A stretch of 38,989 nt of DNA from the IMG/VR virus record IMGVR_UViG_3300048583_000245, positions 1-38,989 of that record; one strand, written 5' to 3'. Made by a program: the position numbers and the translations under genes. This document shows positions 143 to 38,989 of this stretch, one piece after another; the stretch's first letter is position 1; the number at the start of each line of letters is the position of its first letter. This stretch comes from a virus. The notes below the pieces were generated by a model. That model was not told the DNA's origin and ran no database searches. It worked only from the letters and a program-made list of their open reading frames with translations.

Positions 143-2761
143 TTGCCATTTGAAATCCATCGATCCGCTGTCCAGAATCGACCCGCTCAACAGATAATCA
201 ACCGGCGCCGTGCCATAAATGCTTTCGCCCGTCGCGGTCGTCACCGTCATCACATTCGACACCGCGACAAAACTCGTGCCGCTGACGGCATCAAGCGTGG
301 TATCCGTCGCGGTCTTCGCCCCTGTGCCGCCGCTCGATGCCTGCGCGGCGTTGGTGCGGGTGAACAGGATAGCCTGTTTCGGCTGCACCACACCATCAAC
401 CGTCACCTGCACCTCGATCACCGCCTGCGAACTGGTCAACGCGGTCGGCGTGATGTCTCCCTTGTTGGCGCTGCCTGCGGTGTTGTTGATCGTGGCGGTG
501 ATGCCGCCCTGCAGGGTGATGGCATAGGTGGTGCTATCGGCCGTCTTGATGTTCTGGCCGCCGCGCGTCACCCGCACCGAAACAGGCTCCAGATCACCGA
601 TGATGGCGCCCGCGGCTGTCGCGTCATAGGCTTGTGTCGGCGGCACGGCCACAATCACCTGCTGCGTCACCGTATTGTCGGCACCGCCCTCGGTATAGGC
701 CGCGCGAAAACTGGTGATCTGCGTCACCGCCCCGCCGCCATAGGCAGGCACTTCGAACAACATTTCAGCGGCGACGCAGTTCGGCAGCAGCGCCGCCTCC
801 AACCGCAAGGCGGTGACGCCCGGCGCGACCGAACCGCCGCCGTTGAAAGCCGTTGCGATGATATTGTCGGCGGCATCGCGCTGGCGCAGATACAGGCCGA
901 TCGGGCGCGCCGAACCGGCAATAAACACCTGCATCGACGCGAACAGCCGGCGGCCGGCCAGAACCGGGAAACTTATAAAGGGCGTGATGCCTGATCCGGT
1001 CGTCGTCTCAAACGCCCAGACCGATGACAGCCCGGCATTCGCTGCGACGCGCGAAAAACCGGCCGGCAACTCCCATCCTCCGACGCCTGACGCCAGGCCC
1101 CCGTCAAAGATCAGGTTGTCGCCGAAGGTGGCGTTGTTCTCCACCCCGATGTCGGTGCCCTTGGTGATCAGGAACGGCTGGTTCGCCGGCAGGTATGAAA
1201 CCGCCGGCACCACCGTCGGCACGCTGCCCACGTCGCCGCTGGTAAAGGCATAAATCGCCGGGTCTTCCTCCTGGAACACCATTTCGCAAAAGGCCCCGGC
1301 ATCGGCCTCGCTGTTCACCACGATGATCTTCTGCTGCACCACCCGGAACAGCTTGTCGGTGAAACCCAGCGCCGGGAACGTCCACCGCACCGGCTGGCCC
1401 ACCTCGGCCGCCCATCCGCGCGGGCCGACGGTGACCGAAAATGTGCCGCGGGTCTGGGCGCGGCGCAGCACCTGTTCGGCCACCTGCTGCGCCATGCGCG
1501 GATCCTGAAACAACGGCAGGTCCAGCCGCAGCGGCCGGTTGATGCCATCGGCGGCGGTCACGCTGCGCGTCGGATAGGGCGCCGACTGGTAAAGCGCCGC
1601 CCCGTTCGGGTCGGTCCAGCTGCCGCGCACGACGTTGTAACTCTCGCTCAACGGCGCAAAGGGCTGCCACTGATGCTCACCCAGAACATCGTCTTCGGTA
1701 AAGGTGACCAATGATCCGCCCAGGTCGTTGATCGCCATCCGAATGCCGATCTTGCCCCCGGCGTCGCGCAAAACGGCGTTCATGTGGGCACACAGCACGT
1801 TCAACACCCCGTTCGGGTCGTCATCGTCGCTGAACATGCCGTGGGTGGAATATCGCCGCCCGCCCAGCACGGTTTCATCACAGACATTGGCCGCGGCAAT
1901 CCAATCGGCCATCGCCAACCGGTTGACCGGCATCCCGACGCCGACCGAAACCACCCCGCCGATCCGCCAGCCGATAAGATAGGTCAGGGCCTGCAACGCC
2001 GGGTTGGTGCCCAGAACGGTCGCGCCATCGGAATATGCCCACGTCGCCGGATTGTCGGCCCGGTGGCTTCCCGATCCGCCAACGGTCGAATCGCGGCGCG
2101 GGTCATAAACCGGGGCGCCGCGGCCGATGATGGTCAGGCGGGCGGGAATGCCGGCGGCAAACGGGCTTTCGGCCTTCTTGCCGTTGCCGGTGCGCTTCAC
2201 CCGCATGACGATATAGGCGCAACCGGTCAGGCTGCAATTGGCGTTCCACACCGCGCCACCGTTGATCGGCACGCCGCTGCCGCTCACCCCCTCCGTCACG
2301 GCGGTCACGGTCAGATACCCGACATAATCGCCCTGCGCCCCGCCGGCGGCGGTCCAGATCGTCTTGTCCTCGCTGACGATGGTGTGAATGGCGTCAACCC
2401 GGTGCGCCGCCACGGCAATCACCAGGTCGATGAACTCCTGATCGGTGCCGCTGGCTTCCTGGTACACCCCATCGGTGGCCATGGCGGTTTCGCCGACCAC
2501 CAGCTTGCGCGGCGCCTGCGCGTTGAACGTCAGGTTCAGCCGCGAAAGCTGCCGCTGCTGCTGCCCGGCCAGCGCCTGTGTCGCCAGCCCGACCCCGGCG
2601 CTGATACCCAACCCGACGATACCGGTCAAAACCCCGGCGGCGGCGGCACTCGAAAGCCCGATGCTCAAAAGCGCGCTGCTCAACGCCGCGCCGACACCGG
2701 GAATGAACGCAACGGCTACCGCCCCCGCCACCGCAAGGATGCTGCCGATCGTCTTGCCCAT
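1..2761 (-). CDS. Tail tip / host-specificity protein (J-like), part before the circle junction
   Basis: This is the first 920 codons of a 955-residue protein that continues across the circle junction into 38741-38989 in the same frame. It starts at ATG 2761, four bases after the peptidase gene. The N-terminus (about residues 1-65) is a long Gly/Ala/Val-rich hydrophobic stretch followed by QQQRQLSRLNLTFNAQAPRK and LVVGETA. That opening is characteristic of J-type tip proteins in alphaproteobacterial siphophages and the gene transfer agent. The central part resembles a hub/baseplate core, and the C-terminal third (from about residue 590) is low-complexity, beta-rich sequence typical of receptor-binding appendages. 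By family it sits at the tail tip, binds the host and guides DNA entry. Its place after tape measure, distal tail, hub and peptidase genes supports the call. Confidence 0.88.
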   Translation of the reverse strand, partial: MGKTIGSILAVAGAVAVAFIPGVGAALSSALLSIGLSSAAAAGVLTGIVGLGISAGVGLATQALAGQQQRQLSRLNLTFNAQAPRKLVVGETAMATDGVYQEASGTDQEFIDLVIAVAAHRVDAIHTIVSEDKTIWTAAGGAQGDYVGYLTVTAVTEGVSGSGVPINGGAVWNANCSLTGCAYIVMRVKRTGNGKKAESPFAAGIPARLTIIGRGAPVYDPRRDSTVGGSGSHRADNPATWAYSDGATVLGTNPALQALTYLIGWRIGGVVSVGVGMPVNRLAMADWIAAANVCDETVLGGRRYSTHGMFSDDDDPNGVLNVLCAHMNAVLRDAGGKIGIRMAINDLGGSLVTFTEDDVLGEHQWQPFAPLSESYNVVRGSWTDPNGAALYQSAPYPTRSVTAADGINRPLRLDLPLFQDPRMAQQVAEQVLRRAQTRGTFSVTVGPRGWAAEVGQPVRWTFPALGFTDKLFRVVQQKIIVVNSEADAGAFCEMVFQEEDPAIYAFTSGDVGSVPTVVPAVSYLPANQPFLITKGTDIGVENNATFGDNLIFDGGLASGVGGWELPAGFSRVAANAGLSSVWAFETTTGSGITPFISFPVLAGRRLFASMQVFIAGSARPIGLYLRQRDAADNIIATAFNGGGSVAPGVTALRLEAALLPNCVAAEMLFEVPAYGGGAVTQITSFRAAYTEGGADNTVTQQVIVAVPPTQAYDATAAGAIIGDLEPVSVRVTRGGQNIKTADSTTYAITLQGGITATINNTAGSANKGDITPTALTSSQAVIEVQVTVDGVVQPKQAILFTRTNAAQASSGGTGAKTATDTTLDAVSGTSFVAVSNVMTVTTATGESIYGTAPVDYLLSGSILDSGSMDFKWQRSPAGANTWTDFAGAVTGSASTARYNLGFPEFEWVAGVLGSVTCNQS

Positions 2762-3784: not shown

Positions 3785-4401
3785 ACGATCTCTTCCAGGT
3801 CGAATGACGTCGGCTGGTAAATCCGCCCCGGTGCCACCTGCCACCCCAGCGCGGCGCCATTGGTCAGCCGCATGATGGCAAAGGGCAAATGCAGCGCAAC
3901 GGTGCTCACCCCCGGCATCAGGGACAGCGGCGGGTCAAAGGTGGCGGCATTCGAAACGCCGCTGCCGTTGGTCGTCAGGTCGGACGTCAGCACGGCCAGC
4001 CGCCAGCCGACACCCGATGCGGTGGAAAACCCGACCATGCTGCCGGCGCGCAACAGCGGCGTCTGGCTGGGCAACAGGCCGCTGGCGGTGAAGCTGTTGG
4101 CGGTGGGTGCCGATGCCAGCGGGAAAGGCCCGGCGGCCAGCGTCTGCGCCGATTCCACCGCCAGCAACAGGGTTTCGTTGACGGCTCCGCGCATCTGCGC
4201 CTGCCATGATCGCCACGCCAGAACATCGGCGGCGCTGCGCGGTGCCACCGTCACGGTCGCCCGCCATCCTTGGGTGACGGTGCCCCGGTCGATGATCGTC
4301 GCCCGCCCGGAATAGGCGGATTTCGAAGCCCATGCCGCGCGCGGCGGCTGGGTCCATTCGATGGATTGGATGCCGCGCGACGGCAGTGCGATCAACGCCA
4401 T
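3781..4401 (-). CDS. Putative distal tail protein
   Basis: A 206-residue protein directly after the tape measure gene, with ATG at 4401 overlapping the tape measure stop (TGATG). The N-terminus (ALIALPSRGIQSIEWTQPPR) and the beta-rich body (ATIIDRGTVTQGWRATVTVA) resemble proteins annotated as distal tail or gp12-like in alphaproteobacterial phages. Its length is close to gp12 of the Rhodobacter gene transfer agent. In that system the protein forms the ring joining the tail tube to the hub. There are no transmembrane segments or catalytic motifs. The function rests on gene order and overall character, not on a diagnostic motif. Confidence 0.65.
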   Translation of the reverse strand: MALIALPSRGIQSIEWTQPPRAAWASKSAYSGRATIIDRGTVTQGWRATVTVAPRSAADVLAWRSWQAQMRGAVNETLLLAVESAQTLAAGPFPLASAPTANSFTASGLLPSQTPLLRAGSMVGFSTASGVGWRLAVLTSDLTTNGSGVSNAATFDPPLSLMPGVSTVALHLPFAIMRLTNGAALGWQVAPGRIYQPTSFDLEEIV

Positions 4402-6128
4402 CAGCCGCGCCCTGCCGCCATCCGGGGCCGCGCCTGCCGCCGGGCAATGTCCGCCGCCGCCGCCTGCCCCGCCTGTGCCGATGCCACCCGCACCGTCTGG
4501 ACGAACAGGGGCGAAGGCTCGGTTTTAACCGTCACCTCCACCGCCTGCCGCCCGCCGCCCATCATGTCGTTCGGAATGATCATGCCGTCGGCCGGCGCCA
4601 CGAACCGTTCACGGCCCAGCTCGCCGACGTCATAGGAAAGGCCGGCCCTGACAGGACCACCACCGGCCCGCGCGCCGCCTAAAAATGAAGCGCCGACGTT
4701 CAGAATGGAACCCAGAATGCCGCCGCCGCCGCCCTTGCCGCCGGTCAACAGGCTCAACAGCCCCGATGCGATCAATTCGGCCGCCGCCGCGCGAATGCTG
4801 TTGATCAAGGCATCGCCCAACGATTGGCCCAGCACCAGCGCCTGGCCAAGGTTGCGGGAAAGGTCTTCGCCGAACCGCTGCCCGGCGTCCAGCAAGGCCG
4901 GGTCGATGATCTGCACGTTCGAAAGATCGACGGCGATGGTCGAAATCTCGCCGATCGTCGTGCTGAACCGCTCCGAATTGTCCAATATGTCCTGCAACCC
5001 CTGCGAAACCCCGCCGTCACGGCCCAGAACGTCCTGCAACGTATCCAGCCCGCCCAGCCGAACCGCGTTGGCGCTCAACCCGCCATAAATATCGGCAATC
5101 GCCTTGATCTGGCTGCTGGCGCGCCCGCCGCCCGCTGAAGATGGGCCATCACCTGGGAGGCGCCCGCCTGCGCCAAACCCCGGCAGGCCATTGGCATTAA
5201 GTTCGCCCGCCATGATTTCATCAAACAGGCGCGCATCCCGCCCTCTTTTCAGGACAGTTTGATCATTGGCCAAGACCGCACTGATAAAGCCGCTGTCGCC
5301 TAGGATTTCTGAAAAGCCCCGGCGAAAATCGCTAACAGTGCGCAAGGCATTTCCGGCTGCCGATGTCGCTACAATCAACGCTTGGGCAAATGCCAACACG
5401 CTGTCCGCATTTTTCACCACCGCGCTGGCAAACTGCGCGTCCAGAATCATCTTCATGCGGTCAAGCTGGTCGTTAACCGGCCCGGCCTTGCGCAAAAGCT
5501 GTTCGTCAAGAACGATGCCGTAACTTGCCGCCTCATTGGCCAAGGCGTCGAACCCTTCCGCCCCCTGCCCCAGCAACGCCGTCAGGCTGCCGGCGCTCTT
5601 GCCCATCGCCTCCAGCGTGGCGGCATTCTGCTGCTGCACCGTCGGCAGCTTTGATACACCCTCGGCAAAGGATTTCAGGACGTCATCAAGGCTGCGATAG
5701 CTGCCATCGGCGTTCTTGATGTTTACGCCCAGCTCGTTGAACAGGTCCAGCTGGGCCTTGCCGCCCTGCTGCGCCAGGCCAAGGGTGCGGGCAAACTTCG
5801 CCACCGCCGCATCGGCATCATCGACGCTGGATCCCGAAAGCTGCGCGGCAAAGCGGAATTCCTGCAACGCGCGGGTGCTGGCGCCGGTGCGGTCGGAAAG
5901 GTCGCTGATGGCGTCGGCATAATCCAGCGCGCGGCGCGTTTCATCGACCAGCTTGTCCACGGCAAAGCCGCCGATGAACGCCAACCCGGCCGCCTTGGCC
6001 GCGCCGAACGCCTTGTTCATCTGGCGTTCCATGCCTTCGACGGCGGTCGCCGCGCGCTTGGTGTTGGCGATGAACGACGAACTTTCGAGCGTCAAAGATG
6101 TATAGAGACTCCCGACCAAAGTGGCCAT
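4401..6128 (-). CDS. Tail tape measure protein
   Basis: A 575-residue protein starting MATLVGSLYTSLTLESSSFIANTKRA, the standard opening of short alphaproteobacterial tape measure proteins. Helical, Ala-rich sequence follows through about residue 300. A Gly-rich hydrophobic stretch lies near the C-terminus (ELIASGLLSLLTGGKGGGGG, then ILGSILNVGASFLGGA). After it come GELGRERFVAPADGMIIPND and AVEVTVKT, the usual tape measure tail. It sets tail length and may cross the host membrane during ejection. The length predicts a short siphovirus tail, somewhat under 100 nm by the usual rule of thumb. The middle (about 5190-5500) has lower G+C than the ends, suggesting a mosaic segment. The gene starts 15 bp after the HNH island. 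Confidence 0.88.
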   Translation of the reverse strand: MATLVGSLYTSLTLESSSFIANTKRAATAVEGMERQMNKAFGAAKAAGLAFIGGFAVDKLVDETRRALDYADAISDLSDRTGASTRALQEFRFAAQLSGSSVDDADAAVAKFARTLGLAQQGGKAQLDLFNELGVNIKNADGSYRSLDDVLKSFAEGVSKLPTVQQQNAATLEAMGKSAGSLTALLGQGAEGFDALANEAASYGIVLDEQLLRKAGPVNDQLDRMKMILDAQFASAVVKNADSVLAFAQALIVATSAAGNALRTVSDFRRGFSEILGDSGFISAVLANDQTVLKRGRDARLFDEIMAGELNANGLPGFGAGGRLPGDGPSSAGGGRASSQIKAIADIYGGLSANAVRLGGLDTLQDVLGRDGGVSQGLQDILDNSERFSTTIGEISTIAVDLSNVQIIDPALLDAGQRFGEDLSRNLGQALVLGQSLGDALINSIRAAAAELIASGLLSLLTGGKGGGGGILGSILNVGASFLGGARAGGGPVRAGLSYDVGELGRERFVAPADGMIIPNDMMGGGRQAVEVTVKTEPSPLFVQTVRVASAQAGQAAAADIARRQARPRMAAGRG

Positions 6129-6142
6129 AGTCGGGCTCCTTT

Positions 6143-6898
6143 CTACAGCAAGCGCGGGTTATCCGTCTCCCACGGCATCTTCGCAGCTTTGCGACGATTA
6201 CAATCAGGGCAGGACAGCACTAGGTTATTAGGTTTATTTGTTCCGAGCTTTGCCAGCGGAATTCTATGATCAACTTGATATTCGGTTAACTCACACTGGC
6301 ACCACCAGCACTTGCCATTTTGCATCTTTCGCAACGCGGCAATGTCGCGCTTGGAAAACGAACCCTCGGCATTTTTTTCACGCTCGCGGCGGCGCTGGTC
6401 AGTTCCGCGTCGAATTTGCGCGTACAGTTCCGGCTTCTTTAGTCGAGCATTTTCAATAGCTAATTTGTGCTTCGGCCCCTTCACAGGGTCTGTCCTGATC
6501 GCTCGCCGCTTATCCAGTTCTCGCTGGTGGTTGTTGTAGTACCAGGCCCGCGCGCGGTCAGGGTTCGCCTTTTTATATGCTGCCAGTCTCTTATTTCGGC
6601 ACGAAATGCACCGTCTGCTGAGGCCGCGCTTCCCTGTATCCGCCTTATGAAAAAACTCGTCGGTCTCGGGAAACTGCTGCCTGCAGCCTGAACAAGTGCG
6701 GTTGCCGTCGCTGTCTGCATAAACGGCCCGAGGGGCTTTTGGGCCGCTTGTTCGCCAGTGTGCGGTTGCTGCTACCCGACATGATTTGCACGTCGATGTG
6801 AGACCAAACCGCCCTAACTTCTGACGCACAAAAAACTCGGTCGTCGCTGGCTTTTCAATGCCGCACTTGGTGCAAACCTTGACAGGACCCTCGCTCAC
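6143..6898 (-). CDS. HNH endonuclease with zinc-ribbon repeats
   Basis: A 251-residue protein. Two N-terminal zinc-binding repeats are visible, CTKCGIEKP...FF...STCKSCR and CSGCRQQFPETDEFF...RCISCR. A Lys/Arg-rich helical linker follows. The C-terminal HNH nuclease reads CWWCQCELTEYQVDHRIPLA then NKPNNLVLSCPDCNRRK. The ancestral metal finger and the DH dyad are intact, so activity is plausible. G+C is visibly lower than in flanking tail genes, and the gene interrupts the normal chaperone-to-tape-measure order, both signs of recent arrival. It overlaps the upstream 113-residue gene by ATGA and probably shares its promoter. Free-standing HNH genes of this build are often mobile homing endonucleases; an exclusion role against related phages is possible. 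The cleavage target is unknown. Confidence 0.85.
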   Translation of the reverse strand: MSEGPVKVCTKCGIEKPATTEFFVRQKLGRFGLTSTCKSCRVAATAHWRTSGPKAPRAVYADSDGNRTCSGCRQQFPETDEFFHKADTGKRGLSRRCISCRNKRLAAYKKANPDRARAWYYNNHQRELDKRRAIRTDPVKGPKHKLAIENARLKKPELYAQIRRGTDQRRREREKNAEGSFSKRDIAALRKMQNGKCWWCQCELTEYQVDHRIPLAKLGTNKPNNLVLSCPDCNRRKAAKMPWETDNPRLL

Positions 6899-7236
6899 GA
6901 AGCCCGCGCCGCAACCGCCGCGAACAGCTTCATCAGCTGCTGTGTCTCCTTCATTTTCTCGATGGCCGCTTTGGAGGTGGCCGACGAGCTGATCTGATCC
7001 AGCGCCACGGCGATCCGTATGGCATTCTCGCGATATGCCTCTGGCAGCGCGGCCAAAGTCATCACCGCCACAAAGCCAGCAAGATCGGGCATTTCCGGCA
7101 GCATCGGCGCTGGACCTGGCAGCTTGGGCAAACCCGCCACCACCACATCGAAATCGGTGCCCTGGCTCTGCCGGACTGGCCGCTTTGCAGCGGTAGGTAG
7201 CGCCACCACGTTTGTGCTATGTCTGATATCAGCCAT
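6895..7236 (-). CDS. Hypothetical protein of the tail-region island
   Basis: A 113-residue protein of unknown function. I place the start at ATG 7236 because a GGAG ribosome-binding site lies about 7 bases upstream and because the 17 codons before it run into the divergent promoter. The N-terminal 40 residues are polar and likely disordered (NVVALPTAAKRPVRQSQGTD). The remainder is mostly helical (PDLAGFVAVMTLAALPEAYR, AIRIAVALDQISSS, AAIEKMKETQQLMKLF). It has no membrane segment or known motif. It is the first gene of a two-gene unit with the HNH gene, transcribed from a TTGACA promoter that overlaps an inverted-repeat operator. Its lineage is not recognisable; it could be an accessory (moron) protein. 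Confidence 0.7.
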   Translation of the reverse strand: MADIRHSTNVVALPTAAKRPVRQSQGTDFDVVVAGLPKLPGPAPMLPEMPDLAGFVAVMTLAALPEAYRENAIRIAVALDQISSSATSKAAIEKMKETQQLMKLFAAVAARAS

Positions 7237-7304
7237 GATCGTCTCCGCAGGACGGTTGAGGTTAGGGACGACTGGGTGTTGGAGCACCTTGTCGTCCCGT
7301 CCAC

Positions 7305-7346
7305 GTATTACGCGAAGTTATTGACTGCTGTCAACTCGTGTAATAC
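7305..7346. promoter_or_regulatory. Divergent promoters and inverted-repeat operator of the tail-region island
   Basis: Two arms face each other: GTATTACGCGAAGTT at 7305-7319 and AACTCGTGTAATAC at 7333-7346, an inverted repeat with one indel. Between the arms, TTGACA reads on the minus strand (7334 to 7329), with 17 bp to GTAATA at 7311-7306 as a weak -10 inside the left arm. TTGACT reads on the plus strand (7321-7326) toward the ribbon-helix-helix gene. This is a compact operator between divergent genes. Autoregulation by the ribbon-helix-helix protein is the natural inference. Confidence 0.65.
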
Positions 7347-7356
7347 ATGAACGATT

Positions 7357-7518
7357 ATGGTACGCGAAACCAAACTCCCCCAGCTTCTGCAATTCAGGGC
7401 GCCCGACCCGTTGGTGAAGGCGATAGATGACTGGCGTCGCGCCCAATCCGACATTCCTTCGCGCTCGGAATCAATCCGCCGGCTCGTAGAACAGGCACTC
7501 GACTTGCCGAAGCTCTGA
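7357..7518 (+). CDS. Small ribbon-helix-helix (Arc/CopG-type) regulator
   Basis: A 53-residue protein on the plus strand, against all neighbouring tail genes. It reads as strand-helix-helix: LLQFRAPD (strand), PLVKAIDDWRRAQ (helix A) and SRSESIRRLVEQAL (helix B), the fold of Arc/CopG/MetJ DNA-binding dimers. The length is typical of the family. The ATG at 7357 has no ribosome-binding site, and a start point expected from the TTGACT promoter would fall almost on the ATG, suggesting a leaderless message. The inverted repeat just upstream is the likely operator. Its job is probably to repress itself and the divergent 113-residue/HNH unit. An antitoxin role is less likely because no toxin-like partner is adjacent on the same strand. 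Confidence 0.8.
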   Translation: MVRETKLPQLLQFRAPDPLVKAIDDWRRAQSDIPSRSESIRRLVEQALDLPKL

Positions 7519-7533
7519 ACATCGGCGACGCCA

Positions 7534-8207
7534 TCAATCGCCCCCTTCCGCTTTTGCATCCAGCCAGCCGATCAGGCTGGCCAGCTTGGCGTCGTCATCG
7601 ATCTCGGCCTGTGGCCGCCATGTTTTCAGGAAATCGCGCGGCTGTGCCACGCGGGATCCGGCCACCTGCCACGCGGACGCGATGATGCTGCGCCCGATGT
7701 CGTCGGCGCGCGGCTGGCCGAACGGCTCGATCAGGCTGTAAGCCAGCCAATCGACCATTTCGGCACTGGAAAGCCGCACCCCCAATTCCCGCACCGTACA
7801 GCCCATTTGCAGGGCCAGCCGGTGCTGGAACAGCCGAAAGGGGTTGGCGGCTATTTTCCCGCCGCTTCCTCGATGGCATTGGGGTCCAGCTTGTTCAGTT
7901 CGGCGATGGCGCTGAACACCCGGTCAAGTGCGGCGGCCGATTTGCGGCCCAGCGCGCCGATCTCGCCCTCGCTGAACAACGGCTGGCCATCCTCGCCGAC
8001 GATGCACGATGAAACATATCGCGCCCGCAGGTTCGGCACGACCACGAAACCATCGGTTTTCGCGGCGATCTGCGCCGCTTCGAACGCGTCGCGCTCCTCG
8101 GCGGTCATCGACCGGATGCGCACGCTGCCGCCCCATTCGGGCACGGCAACGTCGCGCGTCGGCAGGTCGTTCGCCGCGAGGATCGCGGCTTTCGTCAACA
8201 GGCTCAT
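7534..8207 (-). CDS. Tail assembly chaperone GT fusion, made by -1 ribosomal frameshift
   Basis: The frame of the G-like chaperone (start 8207) ends at 7851. The heptamer GGGAAAA lies immediately before its stop in the register required for -1 slippage (GCG GGA AAA TAG). After slippage, translation continues IAANPFRLFQHRLALQMGCT into the downstream frame (7534-7806), giving a 224-residue fusion. The downstream part (VRELGVRLSSAEMVDWLAYS, LIEPFG) matches lambda gpT-like / DUF4035 tail assembly proteins. By analogy with lambda G and GT, a small fraction of ribosomes shift, and both products coat the tape measure and recruit tail tube subunits. The slip site is longer in A than lambda GGGAAAG and should be efficient. 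No downstream pseudoknot was worked out. Confidence 0.87.
7851..8207 (-). CDS. Tail assembly chaperone (gpG-like)
   Basis: A 118-residue acidic/helical protein starting MSLLTKAAILAANDLPTRDV. The start at 8207 is preferred because its ATGA overlaps the tail tube stop (8204); 15 more codons are open upstream but lie inside the tail tube gene. The body (VPEWGGSVRIRSMTAEERDA, FEAAQIAAKTDG) is typical of alphaproteobacterial tail chaperones, whose N-terminal strand pair precedes a helical domain. It ends NAIEEAAGK at the frameshift site. Role: binding the tape measure during tail assembly; it is not expected in the virion. Confidence 0.85.
   Translation of the reverse strand: MSLLTKAAILAANDLPTRDVAVPEWGGSVRIRSMTAEERDAFEAAQIAAKTDGFVVVPNLRARYVSSCIVGEDGQPLFSEGEIGALGRKSAAALDRVFSAIAELNKLDPNAIEEAAGK
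7854..7860 (-). promoter_or_regulatory. Programmed -1 frameshift slippery heptamer
   Basis: On the minus strand this reads G GGA AAA followed directly by TAG, an X XXY YYZ heptamer in the correct reading register. It joins the G-like and T-like chaperone frames. It is directly visible and agrees with the -1 offset (401 bases) between the two start points. Confidence 0.87.
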
Positions 8208-8656
8208 GGCAGCGTCGTGCGGGTCACCGCGCCGGTGACGCGAATGGTGCATTCGGCGGTCAATGCCGAATTTGCCGATGGTGCCTGCGGCCGGAACGAT
8301 TTGACCAGCGCGGCAAAGGCGTACTGCAGCTGTACCTGCCCCACGATCCGCACCTGAAAATTGTGCGGCAGGCCGTCGTTGGCATACCCTTCAAGCTGTT
8401 CCTGCACCGCCAGATAGCCGCTGCCGGTGGTCTTCCTGCGCAGGTTCAGCGTCATCGTCACTTCGCCATTGTCGGCCAGGCCCAGGATGAATTCCTTTGC
8501 CGTGCTGTCCAGCGCCGTGACCTCGATTTCGTCGCGGACCGGGCTGGGGATCGTCGGGATGCCGACCACGCCGGGGATCACCGCGAAAACCTCTGTCGGG
8601 GTCGCGCCATTGCCCAGCCACACCGATACATTGTTTGCCAGTTGTTCGCCTGCCAT
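8204..8656 (-). CDS. Major tail tube protein
   Basis: A 150-residue protein beginning MAGEQLANNVSVWLGNGATP. The pattern of a short N-terminal extension, DEIEVTALDSTAKEFILGLA, GEVTMTLNLRR and a C-terminal ALTAECTIRVTGAV is characteristic of lambda gpV/HK97-type tail tube proteins. Their beta-sandwich subunits stack in hexameric rings around the tape measure. It lies between the tail terminator and tail chaperone genes, the standard siphovirus order. A GAGAG-like ribosome-binding site precedes the ATG at 8656, where a 9-bp gap separates it from the terminator gene, so this highly expressed gene is not purely coupled. It lacks the additional Ig-like C-terminal domain seen in some tube proteins. 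Confidence 0.87.
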   Translation of the reverse strand: MAGEQLANNVSVWLGNGATPTEVFAVIPGVVGIPTIPSPVRDEIEVTALDSTAKEFILGLADNGEVTMTLNLRRKTTGSGYLAVQEQLEGYANDGLPHNFQVRIVGQVQLQYAFAALVKSFRPQAPSANSALTAECTIRVTGAVTRTTLP

Positions 8657-8665
8657 TGCTCTCTC

Positions 8666-9046
8666 CTATTGAATGAACGTCACGAAATAATCCTGCGACA
8701 CCCGGAACAGCTTCAACGCCGGGTCGCTCTCCCGGATGTTGCGACCGTTCTCGAAAATCACATCCCGGATGCTGCCGGTGTCTTTCTTCCAGTTCCTCAG
8801 GGCGGCGCGCACCGCCTGCCCCCCGGCCCGCGCCTGGGTATAGGTCGCGCCGTAACTGTCGATCTGCACCCGGTCGCTTTCGATATCGCTTTCGGCGTCC
8901 ATCGCGCCCTGCGCCGGCACCATGCTGATGATCTGATAGACGGCGAACGGCACGACGGCGTTTTCCGGCGCCACCATCGGGTAAATCCGCCCGCCGAACA
9001 CCGTCGCCAGCCCGATCAACCGGGCGTAAAGCTCTTCCTCCATCAC
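8666..9046 (-). CDS. Tail terminator / completion protein (DUF3168-like)
   Basis: A 126-residue protein. The N-terminus EEELYARLIGLATVFGGRIYP followed by PFAVYQIISMVPAQGAMDAE and DRVQIDSYGATYTQARA matches the DUF3168 (gp10/tail completion) pattern. In that pattern a helix is followed by a strand-rich core including 'R(V/I)QID.Y' and a helix. It ends with the beta segment FRVSQDYFVTFIQ. The family caps the tail tube at its head-proximal end so that completed tails can join heads. It overlaps the HK97 gp10-like gene (ATGA at 9043-9046) and precedes the tail tube. Start choice: MMEEE or MEEE; the first ATG is in the overlap. Confidence 0.85.
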   Translation of the reverse strand: MMEEELYARLIGLATVFGGRIYPMVAPENAVVPFAVYQIISMVPAQGAMDAESDIESDRVQIDSYGATYTQARAGGQAVRAALRNWKKDTGSIRDVIFENGRNIRESDPALKLFRVSQDYFVTFIQ

Positions 9047-21463: not shown

Positions 21464-21885
21464 TACAGATCGAAGCCGCCAGCCGCGCCACCACCACGCT
21501 TTGTCACCACCTTGCCCCCGGTCGCCCGCTTGCGCGGTGAAAGCGTCAATTCGGATTCCAGCGCGGTGCAGATTTCGGCCTGCTTGTTCATGATCGACAG
21601 CGCCGGGTGCTGCATCAGCGCCTTGGTCTTCGGCGCCTCGATGACGCTGCCGTCCTTCGCCACCCGCCGCGCCGCTTCCTCGTAAATCGCCCGGGCCATC
21701 ACCAGCCGCGAAATCGCATGGCCGTTGACATCGGCCAGCTTGTTCTGCGCGCGCAGCTCGGCAACGATCTCCGCCCAATCCGCCCGCGCCGACGCGGCAT
21801 TCACCGGATCGGTGAACAGCTCATCCCAGTCGGGCTCATCCAGGCCAGCGGCCTCGGGGCAGTTCTTCATCGCTGCCCCTTTCAA
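21463..21885 (-). CDS. terS: Terminase small subunit (P27-like)
   Basis: A 140-residue protein. ADWAEIVAELRAQNKLADVN, GHAISRLVMARAIYEEAARR and ALSIMNKQAEICTALESELT then LSPRKRATGG follow the P27-family pattern: 'W..i...L...g.l...d...l..y...y..a', then 'np...i......i..l...l.LtP..R'. It binds packaging-initiation DNA and loads the large subunit. The start at 21885 is favoured by the ATGA overlap with the HNH gene; a second ATG lies five codons in. The Gly-rich basic C-terminus is usual. It is the standard partner directly before the large terminase. Confidence 0.85.
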   Translation of the reverse strand: MKGAAMKNCPEAAGLDEPDWDELFTDPVNAASARADWAEIVAELRAQNKLADVNGHAISRLVMARAIYEEAARRVAKDGSVIEAPKTKALMQHPALSIMNKQAEICTALESELTLSPRKRATGGKVVTKRGGGAAGGFDL

Positions 21886-22739
21886 ATCTTAACCCTGTTC
21901 CACGGGTGGTTCGGGTCCATCGGCCTGCCGTCGCCGGCGGCGCCAGGTGGTTTTTCCGGCCGGTTGCGCTGGGCGCCCCTCGCGTCGTGGCAGGGTTTGC
22001 ACAGGCTCCGGTGGTTCTTCGGGTCGCCCCACAGCTTGCCGTCGAATTCGTTCGCCGCGTTCCGGAACGGCTTGATGTGGTCCAGCACCGTCGCCGGCAC
22101 CTTCACCCGGCGTTCTTCCCAACAGAATCGGCACCACGGTTCGCGGTTCAGCTGCTGGTCGCGCAGCACGGCGTGGCTGCGGCCGTCGCTGCCCTTGCCG
22201 TATCCGCGCTTCGTGGCACTCTCCCGCGGCCCGCTGGCGGCCACTGACGGCCGGGGCGTGGCCACCGGTGCCATCATCCCGGCCGCCGCGTCCTGCGCCT
22301 CCGAATACCATCGGTGCACCCATTTCGTTGCCACGCCCTCGGCCACAGCGGAAACCAGCGCCGCCTGCTTGCCCGGATCGATCAACAAAACCTTGGCACC
22401 CAGCACGCGGGACCAGAAATCGCGCTGCCACTGCATCGGCGACGGGCTGATCAGCCAGGCGCCGGTGACGTCGCCGGGCTTTGCCAGCGCCTCCAGCGCC
22501 TCGTTGCGCCGGCCAAGGGCGGCCACCACCCACTGCGCATCGGCGTGCGCCGAATGCTGGCCCGAAATTTCGGTGATGATCGACGCCAGGTCGATGATCA
22601 CCTCTCCCGGGGCAAGGTTGCGCCGAGCATGGTCAAGCGCGCCGTTGCCCGGCGGCCCGACGATCACCGTCACCGGCACCACCGGGCGCGGCAGCCATTC
22701 CGGATAGGCCGCGTTTGGGTGGTTCTGCGGCCCGGTCAC
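21882..22739 (-). CDS. HNH endonuclease fused to a degenerate P-loop-like domain
   Basis: A 285-residue protein from GTG 22739, whose GTGA overlaps the stop of the preceding 33-residue gene. The N-terminal 150 residues resemble P-loop kinases (VTVIVGPPGNGALDHARRNL, EVIIDLASIITEISGQHSAH, GAWLISPSPMQWQRDFWS). The Walker A is GPPGNGALDH, lacking the GK[ST] needed for ATP binding. The C-terminal HNH domain has CRFCWEERRVKVPATVLDHI, then NHRSLCKPCHDARG. HNH proteins encoded next to terminase (as HK97 gp74) help cos cleavage and packaging, so this is the likely role. The fusion and missing lysine are unusual. It is coupled to small terminase by ATGA. Confidence 0.8.
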   Translation of the reverse strand: MTGPQNHPNAAYPEWLPRPVVPVTVIVGPPGNGALDHARRNLAPGEVIIDLASIITEISGQHSAHADAQWVVAALGRRNEALEALAKPGDVTGAWLISPSPMQWQRDFWSRVLGAKVLLIDPGKQAALVSAVAEGVATKWVHRWYSEAQDAAAGMMAPVATPRPSVAASGPRESATKRGYGKGSDGRSHAVLRDQQLNREPWCRFCWEERRVKVPATVLDHIKPFRNAANEFDGKLWGDPKNHRSLCKPCHDARGAQRNRPEKPPGAAGDGRPMDPNHPWNRVKI

Positions 22740-31400: not shown

Positions 31401-31966
31401 TCCCTCCCTACCCCTTGCACTGGCCCGAAGGCCTGCCGCGCACCGTCGTGAAGGCGTCGTCGCAATTACGCACGACCCTTTCGGCGGCGGTGAGGAATGT
31501 GAAGACCTCGCTGGAAATGTTCGGGCGGGACAGCGGCAGCAAGGTTTCGAACATCAGCGCCACATCAAATGTCGGCGGCCTGGCCTTTGAAGCGCCAAAG
31601 GATACCGGCGTCGCCGTCTGGTTCGAATGGGATGGCGAAATGCGCTGCATCGCTGTCGATCGATATGCCAAGATCGAAGATAACCTGCAGGCCATCCACC
31701 ACATCATCGAAGCGCGCCGCACCGAGGTTCGGCACGGTGGCCTGCACATCGCCCGGCAGACGTTCAAGGGCTTTACCGCCCTGCCGGCGCCCAGCGGCGA
31801 AAGCTGGTGGCAGGTGCTGGGCGTCGACCAAGACAGCAGCCTGGACGTCATCGAGGCGCACTACCGCACCAAGGCCAAGGCCGCGCACCCCGATTCCGGC
31901 GGCAGCACCGCCGCCATGGCCCGCCTGAACGCCGCGCGCGAAGCCGGCCGGCGGGCGCGGTCATGA
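31397..31966 (+). CDS. J-domain protein
   Basis: A 189-residue protein from ATG 31397 (ATGA overlap). The first 130 residues form an alpha/beta domain (GVAVWFEWDGEMRCIAVDRY, AKIEDNLQAIHHIIEARRTE, RQTFKGFTALPAPSG) of unknown family. The last 55 residues are a J-domain, WWQVLGVDQDSSLDVIEAHY then RTKAKAAHPDSGG, with the HPD triad at about 164-166. J-domains stimulate DnaK ATPase, so this protein may recruit host DnaK to a specific client such as the replication complex or capsid. A C-terminal rather than N-terminal J-domain is known in prophage proteins of alphaproteobacteria but little studied. Confidence 0.85.
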   Translation: MIPPYPLHWPEGLPRTVVKASSQLRTTLSAAVRNVKTSLEMFGRDSGSKVSNISATSNVGGLAFEAPKDTGVAVWFEWDGEMRCIAVDRYAKIEDNLQAIHHIIEARRTEVRHGGLHIARQTFKGFTALPAPSGESWWQVLGVDQDSSLDVIEAHYRTKAKAAHPDSGGSTAAMARLNAAREAGRRARS

Positions 31967-32568
31967 CGACCCTCTCCCCCCTTGCGGCCGCCCGGCGCGG
32001 TGCCCGGCAGTCCCGCGTCGAAAAGAAGCCGCTCGATTCCTATGACACGATCGACCCCCGGGCCGTCGCGGCGCTGCTGCCGCATCTGCCGCGGCGCACC
32101 TGGTTTGTGGAGCCATGCGCCGGCAAGGGCGATCTGGTCCGCCAGCTGGAAGCGGCAGGGCATCGGTGCAGCCTGGCGATGGATATTGCGCCGCGCGCCG
32201 CCCTGATCGCCCAGCGTGATGCGCTGTCGCCCGACTGGACGGTGCCGATGGGCGGCGTCATCATCAGCAATCCGCCGTTCGAATGGCCGCTGGTTCAACA
32301 GCTGCTCGACGCCTTTGCCACCCGGTCGCTGGCCTGGGTGCTGTTGGAGGCCGGCTTTGCCCACACGAAACGCGCCGGGCCCCTGATCCAGCGGTGTCGC
32401 AAGATCGTGACGATCGGCCGCCTGCGCTGGGAAGAGGGAAGCCAGCATTCCAGCACCAAGGATTACGCCTGGTACCTGTTCGGCCAGACCGCATCGCCGG
32501 GCAACGCGCCAAGTTTCTACGGCCACGCCTGGGTCAACCCCCAGAACATCGGAAAGGACGCCGCATGA
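31963..32568 (+). CDS. DNA adenine methyltransferase-like protein
   Basis: A 201-residue protein from ATG 31963. FVEPCAGKGDLVRQLEAAGH (about 49-68) is the SAM-binding motif I and IISNPPFEWPLVQQLLD (about 100-116) holds the NPPF motif IV of N6-adenine methyltransferases. QHSSTKDYAWYLFGQT is the C-terminal block. No target recognition domain is large enough for a type I/II system, so this is a solitary phage enzyme. Such methylation usually protects DNA from host restriction or regulates expression. It overlaps the J-domain gene by ATGA and precedes the ASCH gene. Confidence 0.82.
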   Translation: MTTLSPLAAARRGARQSRVEKKPLDSYDTIDPRAVAALLPHLPRRTWFVEPCAGKGDLVRQLEAAGHRCSLAMDIAPRAALIAQRDALSPDWTVPMGGVIISNPPFEWPLVQQLLDAFATRSLAWVLLEAGFAHTKRAGPLIQRCRKIVTIGRLRWEEGSQHSSTKDYAWYLFGQTASPGNAPSFYGHAWVNPQNIGKDAA

Positions 32569-33489: not shown

Positions 33490-34142
33490 CGGCGATGCGC
33501 GTCCTGATCGGCTTTGAACAGACCGGCATCATGCGCCGCGCCTTTGCCGCGCGCGGCCATGACGTGTGGAGCATCGACACCGAACCATCGTGGGACCGCA
33601 GCAACCGGCACATCACCGGCGATATCCGCGACCATCTGAACGATGGCTGGGATTTGCTGGCCGTCATGCACCCGCCCTGCACCCGGTTGTGCAATTCCGG
33701 CGTCCGCTGGCTGACCGTGCCGCCGCCGGGCCGCACCCTGGCGGATCTGTGGGCCGAACTGGATGAAGGCGCTGCGCTGTTCAGCGCGGCATGGAACGCG
33801 CCGATTCCGCGCATCGCTGTCGAAAACCCGGTGATGCACAAACACGCCAAGGCCCGGATCGTGAATTACCAGCCGCCGGCACAGACGGTGCAGCCCTGGC
33901 ATTTCGGCGAGCGTGCGTTCAAGGCGACCAGCTTTTACCTGCGCGGCCTGCCCCCGCTGGTGCCGACAAACCGCCTCACCCCGCCGCGCTCCGGCACGCC
34001 GGAACACAAGAAATGGTCAAAGGTCGCCCGCGCCAGCCCCGGCCCGCGCCGCGCGATCGAACGCAGCGCCACCTTCCCCGGCATCGCCGAGGCAGCGGCC
34101 GACCAATGGGGCGGGTGGGCAGTGGAAAGGATGGCGGCGTGA
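33486..34142 (+). CDS. Cytosine-C5 methyltransferase-like protein
   Basis: A 218-residue protein. RVLIGFEQTGIMRRAFAARG, HDVWSIDTEPSWDRSNRHIT matches the SAM-binding N-terminus ('vLi.Fe.sG.vr.Af...GhdvwS.D.eps'). LAVMHPPCTRLCNSGVRWL carries the PC motif (about 64-65), and RIAVENPVMHKHAK the ENP motif (113-115). These match the catalytic Cys and Glu loops of C5-cytosine methyltransferases in a short phage-specific subgroup lacking a normal target recognition domain. FKATSFYLRGLPPLVPT is its C-terminal block. It could methylate or otherwise modify phage DNA; biochemical confirmation for this subgroup is thin. It is coupled at both ends. Confidence 0.75.
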   Translation: MTAMRVLIGFEQTGIMRRAFAARGHDVWSIDTEPSWDRSNRHITGDIRDHLNDGWDLLAVMHPPCTRLCNSGVRWLTVPPPGRTLADLWAELDEGAALFSAAWNAPIPRIAVENPVMHKHAKARIVNYQPPAQTVQPWHFGERAFKATSFYLRGLPPLVPTNRLTPPRSGTPEHKKWSKVARASPGPRRAIERSATFPGIAEAAADQWGGWAVERMAA

Positions 34143-34513: not shown

Positions 34514-35013
34514 CCCCCACCCCCATCACCGACCTCGCCGACACCCTCCGCCGCGCCGCGGTAAAGGGCACCCGCGCCCATCTCGATCTTGCCATCGTTC
34601 GCGCCGCGGCGCTTAATCCCCGCATCATGGCCCTGCTCGCCGAAATCGCCGCCGAGGAAACCGCAAAGCTATGCCACGCCGCCCCGATGCCCGACAGCCC
34701 GCCCTTGCCCTTGTTTCCGCCAGCGCTCGGGGAAGAAGCGAACCCATCACCGATACCGCCCGCGCCGCCGCCGCTCGAAAGGTCCGGCTCGACCCGTTCT
34801 ATCTCGAATGGCGTGCCGATCGGCAGCAGTATTGCGTCGCATGGTATGACCCCATCGCTCGTACAAGACGCCGCATCGGCACAGGCATCGGAGGCGGCGA
34901 CAGCCTTGATCCACCGATCGAAGCGCGTGAAGCACTTGCGGCGCATTACACCGCCTATGCCCGACCAGCGGCCGCGCAAGGCCCGGCCGAGGCTGGCTTC
35001 TCTGGACTCCTGA
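34510..35013 (+). CDS. Short protein overlapping the integrase N-terminus (C-terminal half doubtful)
   Basis: The ATG overlaps the HTH stop (ATGA). The first 53 residues, MTPTPITDLADTLRRAAVKG, TRAHLDLAIVRAAALNPRIM and ALLAEIAAEETAK, look like a genuine acidic/helical protein, similar to small phage proteins before integrase. From about 34671 the frame lies over the integrase gene for 343 bases, and its sequence there (Pro/Ser-rich, then basic) looks like an out-of-frame read of that gene. Either it ends as a 167-residue protein, or a frameshift into the integrase occurs (integrase frame is -1 relative). Confidence is only in the N-terminal part. Confidence 0.4.
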   Translation: MTPTPITDLADTLRRAAVKGTRAHLDLAIVRAAALNPRIMALLAEIAAEETAKLCHAAPMPDSPPLPLFPPALGEEANPSPIPPAPPPLERSGSTRSISNGVPIGSSIASHGMTPSLVQDAASAQASEAATALIHRSKRVKHLRRITPPMPDQRPRKARPRLASLDS

Positions 35014-36125
35014 CCAGGTATCTGGACGAACACTGCAGCAAGCTGCGCGCGCCCGACAAGCCGGCCTATGCCGCCCGGCACATCGAGGCCTTCCTCGCCG
35101 AACAACGCCGCGCCGGCGCGCTCCCCCCGATCGTCACCGTTGCCGATATCAACCGCAAACTGGTCGAACGCTACATCCGCTGGCGCCGCGCGCAGGGTGT
35201 CGTCGGCGAAACCATCAACCGGGAACTCGCCACCTGGTCCGGCTGCCTCGGCTGGGCCTGGCGGCAGGAACTGATCGTGTCGCGCCCGTTCATTCCGATG
35301 GTGCCCGAGGAGGAATGCAGCGGCCCCCGGGATCTGGAATGGTCACCAGAACAGGTGGCCGCCATCCTCGAAGCCTGCTGGATTGAGCCCGCCCGGCACC
35401 ACGTGCTGCTGTTCGCCATCACCAGCCTGTCCACCCACTTCCGCACCGATGCGATCCTGGAACTGGACCTCGATGTTCAATACAAGCGCGGCCTGCTCAA
35501 CTCGCTGCCGCCCGGTGATCGACAGACCAGCAAGCGACGCTCGGTCGTGCCGGCGGCGCCGACGCTGGCCGAATGGCTGGAAGGCCGCACCGGCAAGCTG
35601 ATCCAGTACCGCGCCCCAAAGGCCCAGCGGCATTGGGCAGACCCAGCCGTGCCGGAATATTTCGAACGGCCAACATGGGATATCGGCAAGGCGCTGTCAT
35701 CCTCGATCGTCGCCGCCGGGCTGGCTCACCCATCGCTCAAACTGATCGAGCCCCTGCTGGATGCCGACGGCAACCAGCTGATGCAGGTTTTCACCAAGCG
35801 GGAGGCCGGCACCGGCCGGGTGCCCGATCCCAAGCCGATGTGGAAACCGCGCGGCACCCCGAACACCTTCCGCCATTGCTGCCAGACCTATCACCAGGCG
35901 ATGGGCACGCCCGAGGCACAGATCGACCAGGCCAGCGGCCATGCCGGCGAAGGCACCGGCCGCCGCAATTACAGCCACCTGCGCCCCGAATATCTGCGCC
36001 AGTTCATCACCAACGTCGAAGCCTATTGGGCAGACATGGACAGCCTGACAAAAGTGCATCGTCGGTCCCAGGTCGGACCCAAAGTCATCGACCTGGCCAC
36101 CGCCCGCGCCAATCGCACCACCTAA
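34671..36125 (+). CDS. int: Tyrosine-recombinase integrase
   Basis: Up to 484 residues; the first 40 or so (MPRRPDARQPALALVSASAR) may be untranslated, since real sequence starts near RKVRLDPFYLEWRADRQQYC. The arm- and core-binding region follows (FSGLLTRYLDEHCSKLRAPD, VTVADINRKLVERYIRWRRA). In the catalytic domain: THFRTDAILELDLD (Arg I), TSKRRSVVP (Lys hairpin), TPNTFRHCCQTYH (Arg II box; the usual first His of HxxR is Asn), SGHAGEGTG (His) and RNYSHLRPEYL (nucleophile Tyr). It integrates at a tRNA-like site 71 bp downstream of its stop. The gene lies in the accessory operon rather than on an early/late boundary. The 3' end carries an arm-type repeat. Confidence 0.92.
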   Translation: MPRRPDARQPALALVSASARGRSEPITDTARAAAARKVRLDPFYLEWRADRQQYCVAWYDPIARTRRRIGTGIGGGDSLDPPIEAREALAAHYTAYARPAAAQGPAEAGFSGLLTRYLDEHCSKLRAPDKPAYAARHIEAFLAEQRRAGALPPIVTVADINRKLVERYIRWRRAQGVVGETINRELATWSGCLGWAWRQELIVSRPFIPMVPEEECSGPRDLEWSPEQVAAILEACWIEPARHHVLLFAITSLSTHFRTDAILELDLDVQYKRGLLNSLPPGDRQTSKRRSVVPAAPTLAEWLEGRTGKLIQYRAPKAQRHWADPAVPEYFERPTWDIGKALSSSIVAAGLAHPSLKLIEPLLDADGNQLMQVFTKREAGTGRVPDPKPMWKPRGTPNTFRHCCQTYHQAMGTPEAQIDQASGHAGEGTGRRNYSHLRPEYLRQFITNVEAYWADMDSLTKVHRRSQVGPKVIDLATARANRTT

Positions 36126-38740: not shown

Positions 38741-38989
38741 TCAAACCCGCGCTTCAACGGTGACGGCGTTGAACAGGCTGAACGACTGGCCGCCGCTTAC
38801 AGCCCGCGCGACCAGGCGCACGTCATAATTGCCCGCCGCCGGGCTGGTCGATTGATTGCAGGACACGGACCCCAAAACGCCGGCAACCCATTCAAATTCG
38901 GGAAAGCCGAGGTTGTATCGCGCCGTCGATGCGCTGCCGGTCACCGCGCCGGCAAAATCGGTCCAGGTGTTGGCGCCGGCCGGGCTGCG
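38741..38989 (-). CDS. Tail tip protein, C-terminal part across the circle junction
   Basis: This is the end of the J-like protein that begins at 2761. In circle coordinates the frame is continuous, ending YDVRLVARAVSGGQSFSLFN then AVTVEARV with a stop at 38741. In this copy residue 924 region reads GSVSCNQST, while the copy at bases 1-142 reads GSVTCNQS. The C-terminus is beta-rich, like a small Ig or fibronectin-type strand pair, suggesting a receptor-binding or capping fold. The lysis genes follow 18 bp later. Confidence 0.85.
   Translation of the reverse strand, partial: RSPAGANTWTDFAGAVTGSASTARYNLGFPEFEWVAGVLGSVSCNQSTSPAAGNYDVRLVARAVSGGQSFSLFNAVTVEARV
38848..38989. repeat. Terminal overlap, right copy
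   Basis: Copy of bases 1-142 with one difference (A at 38863 versus T at 16). The last 126 bp are identical. See the left copy for interpretation. Confidence 0.95.

Follow-up and report, generated by a model that had tools for sequence, protein, structure and literature searches.

Why does a block of about 1.4 kb (6143-7518) lie within the tail operon of this phage, between genes that are usually adjacent, and what might be the function of the 113-residue protein (U113) that it encodes? The window, by which we mean the whole stretch of 38,989 nucleotides that was analysed, has a 126-bp direct repeat at both ends (17-142 and 38864-38989), which suggests a complete, circularly assembled genome. 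As an integrase gene is also present (34671-36125; phrog_1), the window is probably the complete genome of a temperate siphophage. Known phages gave no nucleotide match to positions 4300-8700. The tail genes are on the minus strand in the order major tail protein, chaperone, lambda-T-like protein and tape measure. The island fills the gap between the last two, so the interruption of the tail genes described in the earlier note is real. Its genes are, in order from the lambda-T-like gene, a ribbon-helix-helix (RHH) gene (plus strand), U113 (minus) and an HNH gene (minus) (Table 1).

Table 1. Coordinates of the island, its predicted control signals and the bordering tail genes in the window.
Feature	Position	Strand	Basis
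Tail chaperone	7851-8252	-	phrog_344, E 4e-26
Lambda-T-like tail gene (left border of the insertion, outside the module)	7534-7806	-	PF06223, E 3e-9
RHH (CopG-type) predicted repressor gene, 53 aa, divergent from U113	7357-7518	+	PF01402
Predicted RHH operator, two sites (7305-7315 and 7336-7346), 31 bp apart	7305-7346	.	Inverted repeat
Predicted sigma-70 promoter of U113: TTGACA (7334-7329), 18 nt, TAATAC (7310-7305)	7305-7334	-	Read directly
U113 mRNA leader: 34-nt hairpin (7265-7298), UAACC, Shine-Dalgarno GGAG (7246-7243)	7237-7298	-	Covariance model
Predicted SymR-like antisense RNA, complementary to the U113 leader, Shine-Dalgarno sequence and start codon	7231-7301	+	RF01809
Predicted extended -10 of the antisense RNA, TG-C-TATGTC	7215-7223	+	Within U113 codons 5-8
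U113, cargo gene, 113 aa	6895-7236	-	ATG with GGAG upstream
HNH endonuclease, two N-terminal zinc-ribbon-like repeats	6143-6898	-	PF01844, phrog_1035
Tape measure gene (right border, outside the module)	4401-6128	-	phrog_2276, E 3e-23

The insertion site in the tail operon

We gathered related tail modules by means of the chaperone and measured the gap from the chaperone to the first possible tape-measure start in the 39 related loci in which both genes were seen. The gap is about 90-560 bp in 34 of these 39 (some of them copies of one phage) and 1723 bp in the window. Relatives with an empty junction were identified (e.g., L022), and the longer gap in L009, L112 and L118 contains a gene like the HK97 gp10 family (recognised by eye in L009). 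Two further relatives, L004 and L020, carry a single antisense gene at the same junction. These genes, which were read by eye, are unrelated to the island and encode a protein with a secretion signal. The two antisense genes (L004 1750-2214 and L020 6701-7132, both on the minus strand) resemble each other.

The relatives are mostly free of the island and two of them have other cargo in its place; thus, the junction is a site for accessory genes (morons). The earlier note had proposed a moron with its own regulator, to be refuted if all relatives share the island. They do not, and the island consists of extra genes between conserved phage genes that are absent from relatives, as in a moron, so that this proposal is supported. 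The lower G+C content that had been described is also found (0.564 for 6143-7518, compared with 0.655 for the window, within the lowest 0.5% of windows of the same size), but it is mostly due to the HNH gene (0.544), U113 having a value of 0.611.

Predicted control signals upstream of U113

The opposite-strand gene had been named as a ribbon-helix-helix regulator, and its match to Pfam RHH_1 (PF01402) is above the gathering score (21.7 bits, cut-off 20.5). The gene lacks a Shine-Dalgarno sequence and starts about 11 nt past its -10 box, so that it is possibly near-leaderless. The inverted repeat that had been suggested as its operator exists: 10 of the 11 positions of the arms are paired, across a spacer of 20. 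When the 120-nt intergenic region is shuffled, an equally good repeat arises in about 2% of cases, which is modest support when taken alone. The two predicted operator sites flank the -35 box of the U113 promoter and overlap both -10 boxes. Relative to the start of the leader described below, the arms are at -48 and -17 and TTGAC is at -36. Paired sites near -48 and -16, with a spacing of 31-34 and different words, were identified at other loci with this leader (L124, L126, L128, L129, L130, L134, L136, L150, L154 and L160). Constant geometry with varying words is what cognate pairs of repressor and operator would give. In most of 35 modules, TTGAC lies between -32 and -42 relative to the leader. 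The island may thus have transcription signals of its own, namely a predicted near-consensus promoter and an operator geometry that is conserved across modules. A simple consensus scan does not report this promoter, as the second hexamer falls outside the scan's rule. Transcription of U113 is predicted to start at the hairpin, at about 7298.

RHH homologues occupy the same divergent position in six of eight viral-contig loci (L121, L122, L124, L125, L126 and L128). All six have the same layout (RHH gene, operator-like repeats around a TTGAC box, 34-nt hairpin, (C)UAACC, Shine-Dalgarno sequence and start codon). The start codon of the divergent gene is 58-64 nt past the start of the hairpin in these loci and 62 nt past it in U113. 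The other two, L123 and L127, have RHH relatives and no match to the leader.

The hairpin of this layout is a second, stronger inverted repeat in the window (7265-7278 paired with 7285-7298) that does not appear in the earlier note. We constructed a covariance model from seven leaders (R1; the window and the six RHH loci) and a second model (R2). The window leader was included in building both models and scores 67.6 bits (R1) and 65.1 bits (R2). Searches that made no use of proteins identified loci in 21 of 398 genomes of the phylum of Stenotrophomonas (L038) with R1, and in 22 of 385 genomes of one class and 13 of 149 of one order with R2. The element was found in about 60 loci besides the window. 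Named cases (Bradyrhizobium, Rhodoplanes and the Komagataeibacter phage phiKM1) are all alphaproteobacterial or from a phage of such a host. Several weak matches, among them L132, L141, L142 and L186, are probably false.

Pairing within the hairpin is maintained by compensatory change. Double changes occur in 7 of the 11 pairs among the seven leaders. In an alignment of 63 leaders, 82.8% of cells are paired (55.0% with shuffled partners), double-change cells number 182 (49 in shuffles), and the covariation score is 0.607, compared with 0.174 for shuffled partners and at most 0.107 for partners that were slid. This alignment was fitted to the structure, which introduces some bias in its favour, and the effect is far above the controls. 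Judged by covariation, the leader hairpin is a real RNA structure.

We identified a divergent RHH gene 58-109 nt upstream of 24 of the 57 leaders that were found without use of the RHH protein, with only one RHH match elsewhere nearby; some of these loci were among the seeds of the HMM with which the neighbours were sought. As RHH is beside only about half of the leaders, the two presumed locks, one by repressor and one by RNA, are separable.

Opposite the leader, the Rfam SymR model (RF01809) aligns from end to end (1-77) with a score of 41.1 bits (E 9.6e-7 in 251 bases), below its gathering score of 61. No Rfam family has a match at the gathering score in the window or in L121-L128. The alignment begins at 7231, opposite nucleotide +6 of U113. 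In the E. coli K-12 control, the annotated SymR also starts opposite +6 of symE. A search of 5 kb with R2 gives a single match (E 4.3e-6), the symE leader, whose end is at the symE ATG. Further matches to the SymR model were seen in L133 and at the SymE gene of L138. The latter (1180-1503, minus strand) is a SymE-type toxin gene with the same leader, and its SymR match is below the cutoff on the other strand. In genomes of one class, the model has matches below the cutoff in L200, L205, L206 and L201. Every one of them starts opposite +6 of a small ORF with ATGACT as its first two codons; this set includes three near-identical copies in one small genome. Phage phiKM1, which carries the module as well, has a match to the ctRNA_pGA1 family of antisense RNAs (L193 5379-5458, plus strand; 40.0 bits, cutoff 45).

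The promoter of SymR lies inside the symE ORF (PMC1891008). In the window, the predicted -10 element of the antisense RNA is likewise within the coding region, 7 nt before the predicted start at 7231. Cargo genes, as we refer to the genes behind this leader, contain GCT-N11-TANCAC at fixed positions near the start codon. Of 48 leaders outside the R1 build, 18 have TANCA at +18 and 6 have it at +24, whereas other offsets average 0.08. When synonymous codons were redrawn in 2000 trials, the count at +18 averaged 2.65 and reached 10 at most, compared with the 18 observed. Read on the opposite strand, TANCA is an extended -10 (TGNTA), 7 nt before the A opposite +6. Thus, the conserved element inside the cargo genes fits an antisense promoter. 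The N-terminus of U113 (MADIRHST) follows the pattern of other cargo genes, MAxxx(H/N)(S/T)T, and the synonymous-codon control rules out this pattern as purely a protein motif. Of 55 leaders, 25 have a T-run after the antisense hairpin, compared with 6 and 10 in control windows. The window lacks it, so the predicted antisense RNA may not terminate there. The antisense RNA, the start sites and repression at U113 are predicted from sequence.

These features suggest how the island may be controlled, and the SymR-like leader and antisense element, which is absent from the earlier note, is the most informative of them. The RHH protein would bind the two sites over the divergent promoters, 31 bp apart, and repress both its own gene and U113. 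The U113 mRNA would begin at the hairpin leader, whose structure is indicated by covariation. An antisense RNA of about 70 nt would start within the first U113 codons, opposite +6, and cover the start codon, the Shine-Dalgarno sequence and the hairpin, so that translation of U113 would be blocked; we propose this because of the end-to-end SymR match and the conserved promoter-like element. U113 would be made only once both locks are open or late transcription floods the region, and the HNH protein would be made along with it through translational coupling.

Alternatively, the hairpin leader could be solely a cis-acting element for translation or mRNA stability, with no antisense RNA and with the first codons acting via the nascent peptide or ribosome binding. 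We consider this unlikely. A small hairpin around the Shine-Dalgarno sequence is indeed predicted in several leaders, and the leader in L039 has neither the TANCAC element nor an RHH neighbour. However, a cis-acting leader does not account for a SymR match that runs end to end and starts at +6 as in E. coli, nor for a coding element whose conservation, even at third codon positions, exceeds synonymous expectation and which in several genes is displaced by 6 nt along with GCT.

U113, other cargo and known systems

Homologues of U113 were not identified in viral contigs, genome contigs, phages or plasmids, or among the 14,068 reading frames of all fetched loci. The protein has no PADLOC, Pfam or PHROG match and no match to toxin or antirepressor families. 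A weak match in G019 (L036) was dropped; it appears to fall in the frame of an XRE-type protein. The single-sequence AlphaFold2 model has a mean pLDDT of 59.5, too poor for a fold search; at this low confidence it suggests a disordered N-terminus and three C-terminal helices.

The 52 cargo proteins form 41 sequence clusters, and 49 were scanned for families, the matches being assigned to loci by sequence. Recognised cargo comprises a SymE toxin (PF08845; L138, the only one of the 49), a KilA-N/ANT antirepressor (phiKM1, L193), a Bro-N antirepressor (L166) and an HNH nuclease (L039). A short-chain dehydrogenase in L186 follows a weak leader match that is probably false. Given the toxin, antirepressors and nuclease recognised among this cargo, U113 is most likely a tightly silenced phage protein for takeover, anti-host or regulatory functions. 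In phiKM1, the deposited start of the KilA-N gene (L193 2060-2908, minus strand) is inside the leader; judged by the leader and the N-terminal pattern, the gene starts at 2854. The neighbouring RHH gene lacks annotation.

U113 could instead be an inhibitor of CRISPR or of another defence, with RHH as an Aca-like autorepressor. This is compatible with the explanation that we favour, and it would account for a small orphan protein beside a small autorepressor in a moron of a temperate phage. Conservation of regulatory sequence has also predicted anti-defence genes in archaeal viruses (PMC11065993). We nevertheless regard this more specific assignment as rather improbable, as U113 lacks a match in PADLOC, Pfam and PHROG, and the cargo recognised behind the same leader (toxin, antirepressors and nuclease) does not include known anti-defence proteins. 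Like phage morons and acr-aca loci in general, the island looks like an additional transcription unit that lies among structural genes and has a predicted small autorepressor, but an RNA lock is outside the definitions of these loci.

The closest parallels to a silenced moron of this kind are found in P22 and E. coli. Mnt and Arc of P22 are ribbon-helix-helix proteins. The ant moron of the P22 late operon contains mnt, arc, sar and ant, of which mnt, arc and sar control ant, and it also affects transcription into the tailspike gene (PMC2629481). The island resembles this immI region in being a moron in a late operon with, as predicted for the window, an RHH repressor and an antisense RNA on the cargo gene. 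The modules of phiKM1 (KilA-N/ANT) and L166 (Bro-N) control real antirepressors, the counterparts of ant. In contrast, the cargo in the window is an orphan protein with an HNH protein, the insertion is at a different site (before the tape measure gene), and there is one RHH gene with no second repressor. The antisense RNA predicted for the island would share with SymR of E. coli its position over the leader and start codon from +6, the two-hairpin layout and the promoter inside the ORF. However, the SymR match in the window (41 bits) is below the cutoff of 61, and U113, without a Pfam match, is not a SymE protein (PF08845). LexA control has been reported for symE (PMC1891008); in the window RHH would take its place. 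As the island has neither an antirepressor nor SymE, it is not an immI region by content and not a SymE/SymR locus.

The whole of the R1162-like plasmid antisense RNA (RF00043) can be aligned with the sense strand of the leader, opposite to the strand of the SymR match; CUAACC, GGAG and, at the start codon, AUGGCU are all within the alignment. Scores are far below the cutoff of 55 (window 22.5 bits, L138 33.4, L124 31.8), and at 22-33 bits we treat this family match as a lead only.

We think it probable that the island is a moron, inserted at a tail-operon junction that is used recurrently, and that it combines a P22 immI-like arrangement with the logic of SymE/SymR. No description of an RHH plus SymR-like module was found in open-licence PMC papers. 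SymR was curated in Rfam around E. coli: with its Rfam model, not one of 190 genomes from a single class passes the cutoff, and E. coli is alone in doing so among 14 well-known control genomes. With the leader model, the same architecture is found at many loci. We suggest, tentatively and with somewhat less than even confidence, that SymR may exemplify a broad, modular kind of antisense leader, made up of a hairpin leader, a start codon and, within the first eight codons, an antisense promoter. Phages, plasmids and alphaproteobacterial chromosomes would place this element before unrelated genes, often with an RHH repressor. The lock would mark cargo that is to be kept silent, and U113 would be a new protein of this kind, for takeover or against the host. 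Should the antisense RNA exist, the module would be a general device for silencing accessory genes, and hidden phage effector genes could be found by their control region rather than by their sequence, much as promoters have been used for gene finding in archaeal viruses (PMC11065993). A link in architecture between the classical antisense controls SymR, R1162 and P22 sar is also suggested.

The HNH gene and the remaining alternatives

The HNH protein reported for the island was confirmed by a match to PF01844 well above the cut-off (35.1 bits, cut-off 21.4), and its best PHROG is endonuclease VII (E 2e-31). In both respects it resembles the HNH/endonuclease VII-like free-standing endonucleases of phages, while its homing activity and target site are putative. 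The GTG start of the gene overlaps the U113 stop codon (GTGA). Codon usage of the HNH gene is foreign to the phage (log-likelihood -36). The closest match among viral contigs, about 31% identical over the full length, is in L039, where the gene is also directly before the tape measure gene. The common position fits a free-standing endonuclease that prefers this junction, which is suggestive, and the gene looks like a separately acquired endonuclease of the homing type. The idea that it supplies mobility is thus plausible, on account of its codon usage and the homologue at the same place in L039, with homing itself only putative.

If homing were the whole explanation, the endonuclease would account for the insertion and U113 and RHH would be passengers or remnants only. 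The foreign codon usage and low G+C of the HNH gene, and the 31% homologue directly before the tape measure gene in L039, are in keeping with this. However, the codon usage of U113 is phage-like (+20), its leader is intact with a strong match to the models, and modules of RHH and leader are found before other genes elsewhere, and we judge that explanation to be quite improbable. Type II antitoxins commonly bind DNA through an RHH domain, so that an RHH antitoxin with U113 as toxin might be considered, but this is the least probable explanation and was rejected, as the two genes are divergent rather than co-directional in one operon. In addition, the RHH protein, at 53 aa, comprises hardly more than its DNA-binding fold, a cargo gene is present behind many homologous leaders that have no RHH, and U113 matches no toxin family.

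Elsewhere in the window, an ORF at 21882-22739 (minus strand) matches the terminase small subunit in its N-terminal half and an HNH endonuclease in its C-terminal half. We also identified a DNA methyltransferase gene (33495-34142, plus strand; phrog_757), and the product of 31963-32568 (plus strand) is methyltransferase-like too, by its NPPF motif.
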